Below, piece after piece: positions 42,507 to 49,083 of a DNA stretch of 64,000 bases; position 1 is the first letter of the stretch, and each line of letters begins with the position of its first letter. The stretch covers positions 124,001 to 188,000 of the forward strand of contig BSYQ01000005.1 of NCBI GenBank assembly GCA_030272585.1. The letters are read 5' to 3'. The DNA is from Bryopsis sp. KO-2023 (Eukaryota > Chlorophyta > Ulvophyceae > Bryopsidales > Bryopsidaceae). The position numbers were made by a program, and so were the translations under genes. The notes below the pieces were generated by a model. It worked only from the letters and a program-made list of their open reading frames with translations. It did no database searches and was not told where the DNA came from.

Positions 42507-42521
42507 TGGTTTCGGAGCGAG
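42507..42521 (+). promoter_or_regulatory. Primer-binding site of Ty3-type element
   Basis: TGGTTTCGGAGCGAG, 1 bp after the LTR; shares TGGTTTCGGAGC with the other two LTR elements. Confidence 0.85.
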
Positions 42522-42526
42522 TTTCT

Positions 42527-42757
42527 ATGCCTATAATCAGAGAAGAAGAATACTGGTTTGGCGAAGAAGGAGATCCTAGGTTACTGCTTGTAGACCTCTG
42601 GCTGGAAGAGAACCCGTTGGAAGTTCTGCACATAGGCGAAGACAATAGTGATACTGAAAGCACAGGATCAAGCGAATCGAGAACTGAGACGGAGGCGACA
42701 GTTGATCTTCCGCTTACCCCTGAAACCCCAACTCAGGAGGAACCCCAACATCAGTGA
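42527..42757 (+). CDS. Small acidic ORF 1 of Ty3-type element
   Basis: 76 residues from MPIIREEEYWFGEEGDP. Acidic, with a Ser/Thr/Glu-rich C-terminus and no recognised domain. It is the first ATG-led ORF after the primer-binding site; the frame is also open back into the LTR. Its TGA stop overlaps a GTG (GTGA) that opens ORF 2. Whether it is translated separately is inference. Confidence 0.6.
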   Translation: MPIIREEEYWFGEEGDPRLLLVDLWLEENPLEVLHIGEDNSDTESTGSSESRTETEATVDLPLTPETPTQEEPQHQ

Positions 42758-43068
42758 GTTCGTTGTCTATGGACCCTTGGCTGGCTCACCTTCTCGATCT
42801 TTATTACAGAATAGAGTGGCAGTATCCCGACGAGGAGCTGGGATTACCGATTGTGCGGAGGGAAGCTAGGAGGAACGAGGTCCAGTTGAACTACGAAGAA
42901 CTCGACCTACTCTGCTTCCTGAAAGAGCTGGAAGAACAGGCTGACAAGGAGAATCAGCCAACCCCAACTACCGAGTCACCTCTCGACTTTCCCACTACAT
43001 CAAGGTTTTACCGCTACGACGAGGAGGAACGGAACTCCTTGGCCCTGACATCGCTTTTTCACCAATGA
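42754..43068 (+). CDS. Small ORF 2 of Ty3-type element
   Basis: Frame opens at the GTGA overlap with ORF 1; the first ATG is at 42769 (MDPWLAHLLDLYYRIEWQ). About 99-104 residues, acidic, with NYEELDLLCFLKELEEQ helix-like sequence. No known domain. Its TGA overlaps the ATG of ORF 3 as ATGA at 43065-43068. Confidence 0.6.
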   Translation: MSSLSMDPWLAHLLDLYYRIEWQYPDEELGLPIVRREARRNEVQLNYEELDLLCFLKELEEQADKENQPTPTTESPLDFPTTSRFYRYDEEERNSLALTSLFHQ

Positions 43069-47400: not shown

Positions 47401-47969
47401 CAGATGAATGGTGGACAGTTTGGGCTAAAAGTTTACAGCTGGCTCGGAAAGCGATTTTGAAAAGCCAACAGCGACAGAGGGCTGTCGCAAACCGAGGGCG
47501 GAGGGATGCAAGTTTTGCATTAAATCAGTATGTCTTTTTATCGACAGCTGATTTACCTTTACCGCCAATGATGGGCCGGAAGTTGGTATCTAAGTTTTGT
47601 GGACCTTTTAGAATTATTGATATTGTGACATCAGTAACTTACAGGTTGGAACTTCCTAATCACTGGAAAATACATGATGTTTTTCATGTTTCCAAGCTAA
47701 AAGCATTTGAAGATGGATCAGAAGAGTTTCCAGCCAGGGCTATTTCTCCACCTCCAGATCCAGTGGTGTTGGAAGGAGTCGAGGAATATATCGTCGAAAA
47801 GATCAAGACACATCGAACCAAACGGCGGAAAAAGAAGAATGTGACAGAGTACTTGGTTTCCTGGGAAGGATACGGATCGGAAGAGGACCAGTGGCTCCCG
47901 TCACATCACTTGGGTAATGCGCAGCAAGTGCTGCAGGAGTATTTACGTCAAAAATCTTCCATGGACTAG
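44424..47969 (+). CDS. Pol of Ty3-type element (PR-RT-RH-IN-chromodomain)
   Basis: 1181 residues from the ATG overlapping the gag stop. Protease IDCGATD near residue 93 (DCG instead of DSG/DTG), RT with YLDDILVYS at 418, RNase H TDASDFAIGG from about 566, integrase HHCC from about 762 (CHDQAGH ... CVGCQKNK) with LDFVGPLP, ISDRDTRF and MTERANR. It ends in a chromodomain (EYIVEKI ... YLVSWEGYGSEEDQWLP), which typically guides integration to modified histones. Pol lies in the -1 frame to gag but there is no slippery heptamer at the overlap, so stop-restart translation is more likely than frameshifting. Confidence 0.95.
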   Translation: MSMLGKLAGCEVKGKPASSRNSRNSRDFSLEETSKEPTRPDNQDNLEVHSFDGTDLDMTKFGFLAVAETDNRTRQLITVKGEISGFAAEILIDCGATDCFLARKFCEKNKLELEAQEEKVSLAGGSTLESKGKIRATLRFGDFASREIFHEMSLAKYDAILGKTWLAKHNPRVDFRTNEVVVSDGLKEHLIPPANPGEEEEEQCVLMVFETCLNRTDSEQNVSRQAELTAEIRQEFPNTFVEELPSEIPPSRGIEHTIQLEPGTVPQSKAPYRLGIKEMAELKTQIAAMSEKGFIRPSRSPWGAPVIFVPKKNGKLRMCVDYRALNKVTVKNAYPIPRIDELIDQLHGAKYFSKIDLCSGYYQVRMAKKDWAKTAFRTRYGSYEYTVMPMGLTNAPATFMNVMNDVFRPHLDKFVIVYLDDILVYSRNWEEHKEHLRQVFQLLEKHKLYVSPDKCDLGMTEVEFLGHIVGREGLSVVPKKVLAIKEWAQPQTVRDIRSFLGLANYYRKFIKGYSGIATPLHELTRKEVKWQWTESQEKAFQTLKKSMQEAPVLIIPDPELSFEVTTDASDFAIGGVLTQDQGQGQQPAAFESRKLNSAERNYPTHEKELYAIVYCLKTWRHYLGARKFVVHTDHAPLKYIQTQPKLSSRQARWMETLQEFDFEIKYKPGKENTVADALSRRSEMELNAVAKVRAGVVFQDQVRLAYQGDEHCREVIANWEAGEKDPRYRWDGTKLWYSLKDKWFWYIPKDKEIRQTVLAECHDQAGHFGRHKTVANVRKRYYWPRCTEDVERYVRTCVGCQKNKSSTQKPLGLYQPIPVPDERWKEVCLDFVGPLPMTQKGHDYLVVMVDRFSRMIHLVATTTAVTASGVAEIFFDTIFRHHGLPEAIISDRDTRFTGQFWRKLWELAGTRLAMSSGYHPETDGMTERANRVVGDMLRIYISTIGGDWDTKLVAAEFAYNSSVHSSTGFTPFYLVYGQHPRSPQDLLDSGPVSDEWWTVWAKSLQLARKAILKSQQRQRAVANRGRRDASFALNQYVFLSTADLPLPPMMGRKLVSKFCGPFRIIDIVTSVTYRLELPNHWKIHDVFHVSKLKAFEDGSEEFPARAISPPPDPVVLEGVEEYIVEKIKTHRTKRRKKKNVTEYLVSWEGYGSEEDQWLPSHHLGNAQQVLQEYLRQKSSMD

Positions 47970-48063
47970 CTCCTGTTTTCCTGAGTTCGGGTTGAGTGTG
48001 TGCGAGTGCGAGTGTGTGCGAGAGACAGTTTGGAGTTCGAAAAAGAAAAAGAAAGCAGACAAC

Positions 48064-49083
48064 ATGGTTGAGTTTGGTGGAGGAGTCAAAGCACTGTTGG
48101 AGGAGATTAAAAAGAATGCTGGAGCGATCGAGGGAGTGTCGGAAAGGATCAACAAAATGCTGGAGGAGTACCTGAAGGAAGGAACCAGACTGGAAAGAAT
48201 CCAAGAAAGAGATGAGCAGGAGGCCCTGGAAAAAATGGCAAAGCTGGAGGAGGAAAAAGAACAACTCAAGCAAAAGATCGGCGAGCTGGAAGAAGAAGGG
48301 GGATTTCAGGCGGAAAGAGATAGCTGGGAGGCTGAACGCACTCGGTTGCTCGACGACCGGGCGAAATATTTGGCGGAAAATGAGGACCTCAGCGTAAAAT
48401 TGGCGATGGCGGAAACTTCAGCGGACGCGGCGAAAAGAGAGGCGGAAAAGCTGCTGATGGAGGGGGCAGATGAGGAAATGCGCCACAAGCTCGACGGGGT
48501 CGAAGACAAGCTGCGGGAAGAGCAAATGCGGAACCAACAGCTCAAGGGCCAGGTAGACTTGTTGAAGAGTATGGTGGAGTCCATGTCGGGAAAACCAAGC
48601 GGAGAAGTGAAGCACGAAGAGGGGGAAAAACACACTTGCGTGTTTTGTCGCACCCCAAGCAGCAACTGTCAGCCGACCGGAGAAGACTGCCAACGGCACT
48701 GGGTGTGCTCGAATATCGGGTGTCGGGATCGGGTGTGGCTGAGTATCAGTCTGGAAGTCGATGAGGAAAAACGAGACTGGCGGAGAATGTGGGTACCAGC
48801 TGAAACAGGGCCACCAATGGTGCTACACTCGGAAACCTGCAAACTCTGCGCCTTGGGTTTCAAGTTGGGGTCGGATTATACTCGGGGAGTGTATTTAAAG
48901 GCCAAGCGGACCGTGGGCCCCCTGAGAAAATTCGAGGCAGCCGAAGACGATGCAGAACCAACGGACTACGATGGGGATTGGGTCGTCAATGAGCCAGGCG
49001 GAGACAGTGGACCAGAAGGAAAGAAAAGGAAACCTCCTGGAAGTTCAGGGGGATCCAGAAATGTGAAACTCAGAAAAGCCTGA
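48064..49083 (+). CDS. Coiled-coil / cysteine-rich ORF after pol
   Basis: 339 residues from the first ATG (MVEFGGGVKALLEEIKK), 94 bp after pol. Residues 1 to about 180 are a long charged coiled coil. A Cys/His cluster follows: C192, C195, C202, C209, H212, C215, C220, then C259 and C262, plausibly binding two or more zinc ions. The C-terminus is acidic and then basic (GKKRKPP, NVKLRKA), a possible nuclear signal. It sits where env or an extra ORF lies in some Ty3 elements but has no signal peptide or membrane segment, so it is not an envelope. I do not recognise the family. Confidence 0.8.
   Translation: MVEFGGGVKALLEEIKKNAGAIEGVSERINKMLEEYLKEGTRLERIQERDEQEALEKMAKLEEEKEQLKQKIGELEEEGGFQAERDSWEAERTRLLDDRAKYLAENEDLSVKLAMAETSADAAKREAEKLLMEGADEEMRHKLDGVEDKLREEQMRNQQLKGQVDLLKSMVESMSGKPSGEVKHEEGEKHTCVFCRTPSSNCQPTGEDCQRHWVCSNIGCRDRVWLSISLEVDEEKRDWRRMWVPAETGPPMVLHSETCKLCALGFKLGSDYTRGVYLKAKRTVGPLRKFEAAEDDAEPTDYDGDWVVNEPGGDSGPEGKKRKPPGSSGGSRNVKLRKA

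Follow-up and report, generated by a model that had tools for sequence, protein, structure and literature searches.

How do ribosomes reach gag when three other open reading frames (ORFs) stand before it? In the usual description, a long terminal repeat (LTR) retrotransposon makes Gag and Pol, and recoding takes place between the two. The question arises from a complete Ty3 chromovirus in a 64,000-nt stretch of contig BSYQ01000005.1 of the green alga Bryopsis sp. KO-2023 (assembly GCA_030272585.1, positions 124,001 to 188,000, forward strand); this whole stretch is referred to as the window, and all coordinates are those of the window. A sequence-only reading of the DNA had named six ORFs in a closely packed row, all of which are present with the junction letters as described, and had proposed a polycistronic RNA expressed by repeated termination and reinitiation. 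That several cistrons share one RNA is very probable; serial reinitiation as the main route is the part of that proposal that we do not retain. We consider it likely, given the features presented below, that the genomic RNA serves as a polycistronic mRNA and that leaky scanning is the main way in which it is decoded. The features on which this reading turns are:

42333..42341, plus strand: TATA-like box TATAAAAGG in the 5' LTR; ATG absent between the box and ORF A
42527..42757, plus strand: ORF A, 76 amino acids; first AUG past the TATA box, in the weak context tctAUGc
42754..42759, plus strand: GTGAGT at the end of ORF A, a possible splice donor and not the start codon of B
42769..43068, plus strand: ORF B, 99 amino acids; second AUG, with T at -3 and G at +4
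43065..43424, plus strand: ORF C, 119 amino acids; third AUG, with C at -3; ATGA overlap with B
43432..44427, plus strand: gag, 331 amino acids; Retrotrans_gag domain and CCHC zinc knuckle; fourth AUG, in the strong context gagAUGg

AUG codons before gag in the element and its relatives

The window copy has exactly four ATGs between the TATA box and gag, the gag start included, and each of them opens one ORF: A, B, C or gag. By comparison, the ATG density in the stretch from gag to the end of the 3' ORF (ORF F, described below) is 18.2 per kb. The starts of A, B and C have T, T and C at position -3, and the gag start has G at both -3 and +4. Translating ribosomes ignore internal AUGs, but scanning subunits do not. 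A purge of internal AUGs would be needed only if the ORFs are scanned untranslated, which argues for scanning through A, B and C; because these ORFs hold no other AUG, ribosomes could reach gag in this way. We envisage that a 40S subunit would load at the 5' end and encounter first the AUG of A, then that of B and then that of C. Given the pyrimidines at -3, some ribosomes would initiate at A, B or C and others would scan on, and those remaining would scan about 905 nt before starting efficiently at the strong gag AUG. Translation of Pol would depend on a further, distinct step after Gag: either a -1 frameshift or reinitiation coupled to the AUGA. We infer, rather than observe, the route of the ribosome, the start of the RNA and the function of the small proteins.

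We searched the 91-Mb genome for copies and found about 60. A search with ORF C yielded 68 match rows, of which 41 cover its full length at 100% identity; A gave 68 and B 64, and the rows for gag (123) and ORF F (120) include distant families. Of 66 leader regions fetched, seven without an anchor were dropped and 59 were anchored (48 distinct). Two C12 relatives, L071 and L072, are decayed copies, with the A start lost in L071, and were excluded from all counts. Subfamily I, the window type, has A, B and C of 76, 99 and 119 amino acids (43/59 leaders). Subfamily II (L059 to L068, 10/59) has at least ten copies, with A of 74 and B of 98 amino acids and C cut to 22 codons; it retains the ATGA between B and C and the 7 nt before gag. 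Subfamily III (L073, also L074) is without B. In L070, B has 90 amino acids; A is shortened in three leaders (L054, L055 and L058), and L069 bears an insert. The layout is kept more often than chance would give (A, B and C at full length in 43/59, the ATGA between B and C in 57/59, the 7-nt gap in 59/59), but as many copies are young and near-identical, the weight of the comparison rests on the divergent subfamilies. No extra ATG is present in 56/59 leaders (45/48 of the distinct ones), the exceptions being L054 and L069, which carry inserts, and L065, with a single gained ATG. Upstream of the ORFs, the stretch from 25 nt past the start of the TATA box to the primer binding site (PBS) is free of ATG in 58/59 leaders, those in which the TATA box was found.

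Related elements elsewhere in the genome have a similar organization. Five gag-related sister families, L079 to L083 (Gag 36-41% identical at the chosen loci), are represented by one copy each, and a sixth, L102, comes from an unselected set, the start of its Gag being 65% identical to that of L083 over 92 residues. Each of the six has one or two ORFs, of 79 to 271 codons, between PBS and gag, and from the start of the first upstream ORF to gag there is no other ATG, L079 excepted. The gag ATG precedes the stop of the last upstream ORF by 56, 35, 17, 128, 92 and 218 nt (L079 to L083 and L102). Purines occupy -3 at four of the six gag starts.

The genome contains the PBS core TGGTTTCGGAGC 2013 times, versus 11 times for a reversed control. 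Among the first 20 plus-strand PBS sites listed, two (L090 and L102) have such an ORF or ORFs before gag; L090, which matches L083 with 98.8% identity along 1001 nt, does not enter the counts a second time. Four others (L091, L095, L096 and L108) open with 466-794 nt free of ATG, and at the remaining 14 the first ATG lies no more than 144 nt from the PBS start. Given that two of the 20 sites show it, only some of the elements with this primer site have the trait.

When the codons of A, B and C in the window copy were shuffled against their own composition, zero extra ATG was obtained with P = 0.0024 (0.0018 in a repeat run). Pooled over seven families, one extra ATG is found versus 27.2 expected when synonymous codons are shuffled within each ORF (never fewer than 15 in 4000 runs), and internal methionines number 0 in 1558 residues of the upstream ORFs versus 31 in 960 of the gag parts read. 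A pyrimidine at -3 is found at 11/11 small-ORF starts versus 2/7 gag starts (Fisher test, 0.0025). The strong depletion statistics derive from this pooling of families, and the effective sample is smaller than seven.

Junctions between the ORFs and a possible splice donor

The row of ORFs had been described as joined by stop/start overlaps: GTGA at 42754, ATGA at 43065 and 44424, and a 7-nt gap before gag. The two ATGA overlaps and the gap are exact. The letters GTGA are also there, but the first ATG of B is at 42769, 11 nt past the A stop. We tried GTG as the start of B and rejected it: the A-to-B spacing shifts the frame relation among copies (of the 58 leaders with B, 26 have 11 nt, 17 have 12 nt and 12 have 8 nt), and 13/59 leaders have GTAA at this position. 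The GTGA "overlap" is incidental.

Serial termination-reinitiation, in which a ribosome that finishes A, B or C would restart at the adjacent AUG, is unlikely in our view. It would account for the spacing in related copies, where the ATGA between B and C is kept in 57/59 leaders (L070 has a 12-nt gap and L073 is missing B), A and B are 8-12 nt apart in 55/58, C and gag are separated by 7 nt in 59/59, and gag and pol overlap by ATGA in 45/46. It also has precedents in caliciviruses and in SART1, as far as the accessible descriptions of these systems go. However, it does not need AUG-free ORFs, yet A, B and C are AUG-free, and close stop/start pairs are not present at every junction: A does not overlap B, and the gap from A to C is 43 nt in L073. 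B, or most of C, is gone from some subfamilies. The sister families break this explanation, because it needs starts near or after stops and their gag starts lie 17-218 nt ahead of the preceding stop. As a rule, ribosomes reinitiate poorly once they have translated ORFs as long as 76-119 codons. The conserved ATGA between B and C may reflect compact packing or partial reinitiation.

The hexanucleotide at the end of A raises another alternative. It is GTGAGT in 43/59 leaders and GTAAGT in 13/59, the other three having a shortened A, and such a GTRAGT donor might be joined to acceptors before gag or before ORF F to give gag or F RNAs without B and C. We regard splicing as quite unlikely to be the way in which gag or F is made, although 56/59 leaders carry the donor match and the accessible text on rice tungro bacilliform virus (RTBV) describes a 3' ORF made from spliced RNA. 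The full-length RNA must still express A, B and C; an AUG purge in B and C would serve no purpose if splicing always took them out; and gag of the sister families begins within the preceding ORF. Moreover, the candidate acceptors end in GAG, which is a poor acceptor match. For ORF F, there is a pyrimidine-rich tract ending in AG before it (47970-47985), found in both spacer types among nine aligned copies; the rest of the spacer differs between the two types. It is possible that the GTRAGT donor and this tract delimit an intron for a spliced 3' ORF RNA.

Several points weigh against leaky scanning as the main route. The ATGA between B and C (57/59) and the 7-nt gap before gag (59/59) are not required by pure scanning, although most copies are young. 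Some RNAs could skip B and C by way of the candidate splice donor with which A ends. A first-order Markov test of AUG depletion in the window copy alone gives only P = 0.034, and the own-codon null is weak for short leaders taken singly (P = 0.18 for L082, 0.17 for L102 and 0.098 for L073, none of them significant, and 0.043 for L060). The seven families are related and several of their upstream ORFs are homologous, so that neither the pooled counts nor the Fisher test are independent. One extra ATG is present in L079. Finally, the gradient of start contexts is not clean: the B start carries a G at +4, and a T occupies -3 at the gag starts of L079 and L081.

Selection on the small ORFs

A further alternative is that A, B and C are only regulatory upstream ORFs or chance frames without protein function. 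In its favour, subfamily II has multiplied although it lost most of C, and subfamily III lost B. Known domains are also lacking: Pfam gave no domain in A, B or C up to E 0.1, and nothing better than E 0.16 in four sister upstream ORFs. We nevertheless consider this alternative highly improbable, as the ratio of nonsynonymous to synonymous substitution rates (dN/dS) is about 0.1 for C and 0.14 for B in comparisons with divergent copies. The suggestion that three small proteins are encoded before Gag is borne out in that the ORFs are conserved and their substitutions indicate that A, B and C are all under purifying selection. Broken small ORFs in related copies had been named as evidence that would refute the proposal, and such losses do occur in part: 43/59 leaders keep A, B and C at 76, 99 and 119 amino acids, but B is gone from subfamily III and subfamily II has just 22 codons of C.

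Low dN/dS had been named as a check on the small ORFs, and the values between the window copy and L060 or L070 are 0.07-0.25. Versus L070, they are 0.13 for A, 0.25 for B, 0.10 for C (46.7 synonymous versus 25.3 nonsynonymous differences over 119 codons) and 0.03 for gag. Versus L060, they are 0.07 for A, 0.14 for B (34 synonymous versus 30 nonsynonymous differences over 98 codons) and 0.09 for gag; C was compared with L060 over 22 codons only. One ratio is high, that of B between L060 and L070 (0.41), and the C-terminus of B is altered in L070. The synonymous divergence (dS) of B and C in the pairs of the window copy with L060 and L070 is 0.86-1.03. Because dS is about 1 in B and C (42769-43424) while that of the flanking A and gag is 0.04-0.2 in the same pairs, the B-C cassette was probably exchanged between element lineages.

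The sister families bear on the same question. Pairwise dN/dS of the upstream ORFs of L082, L083 and L102, for the part before gag, is 0.24-0.27, with dS above 1.6, near saturation, in two of the three pairs. A PxHxH...Cx4C motif is common to six upstream ORF proteins from five of the six sister families; an alignment of these six, with A, B and C not in the query, had no relative in the protein database at E 0.01 (7993 candidates scored). A search of IMG/VR gave no relative of gag or ORF C, and a single-sequence structure model of ORF C is uninformative (predicted local distance difference test score 34).

The rest of the element and known systems

The element spans 41935-50172 (8,238 bp), flanked by an AAGC target-site duplication. 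The position given as its start by the sequence-only reading, 42507, is the first base past the 5' LTR and so is not the start of the element. The remaining parts are:

41935..42506, plus strand: 5' LTR, 572 bp, identical to the 3' LTR
42507..42524, plus strand: PBS, 18 nt assumed; core TGGTTTCGGAGC, with TGG... right after the LTR
44424..47969, plus strand: pol, 1181 amino acids; -1 frame relative to gag, with ATGA overlap
48064..49083, plus strand: ORF F, 339 amino acids; AUG in strong context; predicted coiled coil, then a Cys/His-rich C-terminal part
49588..49600, plus strand: polypurine tract AAGGGGGGAGGAG, read by eye
49601..50172, plus strand: 3' LTR, 572 bp

We assign the element to the chromoviruses because Pfam recognizes gag and its CCHC knuckle and, in pol, a protease (residues 67-184), reverse transcriptase (RT; 309-469), RNase H (557-660), an rve/H2C2 integrase (750-920) and a chromodomain (1122-1175; Chromo PF00385, E 7e-10). 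The best-scoring named pol matches, with Closterium at the head, are proteins of Closterium and land plants (best 120 of 7868); these matches and the telomere repeat noted below point to a host of the green lineage. The element is recently active.

The gag/pol junction had been described as free of a slippery heptamer, unlike that of the outer element nearby. Both statements hold: no XXXYYYZ occurs in the 97-nt overlap of the gag and pol frames, and AAAAAAC stands in gag phase in the outer element, inside its gag/pol overlap, at 51790 (minus strand). The ATGA between gag and pol is counted among leaders with gag of at least 320 codons, L057 being the exception. In four of five sister families gag ends in GGAAAAC followed by the stop, where the -1 frame is open; in three of these four that frame opens only 16 nt before the stop. 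At L085 to L088, GGAAAAC is followed by TAA or TGA and, while not a standard in-phase XXXYYYZ heptamer, is a candidate frameshift site; at L087 the -1 frame closes again about 100 nt on. The arrangement suggests that sister families with GGAAAAC before the stop use -1 frameshifting. In the window family, Pol could possibly be made by AUGA reinitiation or by a -1 shift.

The length of ORF F is counted from the ATG in good context at 48064; another in-frame ATG lies upstream, at 47917. Its C-terminal part (residues about 190-311) has relatives of about 33-42% identity at many loci in the genome, mostly in frames of about 450-480 codons (one was read, L117). No relative was found in the protein database at E 0.001 (3419 candidates), and a structure model is confident only in the helical first half.

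Among known systems, the closest likeness is to RTBV and the badnaviruses. The accessible text of PMC5902531 describes leaky scanning in RTBV across 900 nt, which is helped by ORFs I and II being free of internal AUGs. It also describes successive ORFs of Caulimoviridae as joined by short overlaps, sometimes with fused stop and start codons, and the RTBV 3' ORF as made from spliced RNA. In both cases small AUG-free ORFs (two in the viruses, as described there) with weak starts and near-touching ends precede a large structural or RT ORF. The window element has AUG-free upstream ORFs and contexts that are weak upstream, apart from the G at +4 of B, and stronger at gag. Unlike RTBV, in which ORF I starts at AUU, it is integrated and has three small ORFs, all starting with AUG, separate gag and pol, a chromodomain, and a stretch of only about 190 nt from the TATA box to ORF A. 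Caulimoviridae have neither LTRs nor integrase, and here both are present. That Ty3 chromoviruses in this genome use, as an entire group, the full tungrovirus-type programme (several AUG-purged and leaky-scanned accessory cistrons ahead of gag, a recoded pol and a spliced 3' accessory cistron), by convergence or as an old trait shared with the Caulimoviridae, relatives of Ty3 elements, is conceivable but doubtful.

With the plant and algal Ty3 chromoviruses (for example the Chlamyvir, Tcn1, Reina and CRM clades) the element shares Gag, protease, RT, RNase H, integrase, chromodomain, LTRs and a PBS adjoining the LTR, and it differs from them in the extra ORFs before gag. A 2011 paper reportedly deals with extra ORFs in plant Ty3/gypsy elements. 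The Ogre/Tat/Athila (OTA) elements resemble ours in having ORFs besides gag-pol, but, in the accessible text of PMC6317226, they are non-chromoviruses without a chromodomain, which our element has, and their extra ORFs are heterogeneous and of 250 codons or more, with no AUG purge described. As that survey counted extra ORFs from 250 codons up, frames as small as A, B and C would have been missed, and such a cut-off can overlook conserved accessory genes. The AUGA/UAAUG stop-restart of the SART1 long interspersed nuclear element and of caliciviruses has its like in the overlaps of B with C and of gag with pol; in contrast, the A/B and C/gag junctions do not overlap, and sister gag starts lie well before the preceding stop. 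In the literature outside subscription papers, as far as the listed titles and opening lines of abstracts show, we found no LTR retrotransposon described as having accessory ORFs ahead of gag that are read by leaky scanning. If leaky scanning is correct, an LTR family that makes several accessory proteins off one RNA would widen the Gag-Pol picture, and Ty3 elements would share an expression style with plant pararetroviruses. Families in one genome that vary in the number and overlap of their upstream ORFs would then be a natural test set for the scanning distance of the 40S subunit.

The Ty3 element is itself inserted in an older, oppositely oriented element (LTRs at 40196-40693 and 53180-53677). 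On the minus strand, in 53150-53260, the gag ATG of this outer element (53199) falls within its LTR, with a TGGTTTCGGAGC primer site 20 nt further on, and its Gag is therefore read across the border of LTR and PBS. Elsewhere in the window, three long ORFs (225, 883 and 677 amino acids) overlap in different frames within 16872-20055; by eye they are reverse-transcriptase-like and would represent a second kind of retroelement. The telomere repeat TTTAGGG is present at the three contig ends read.

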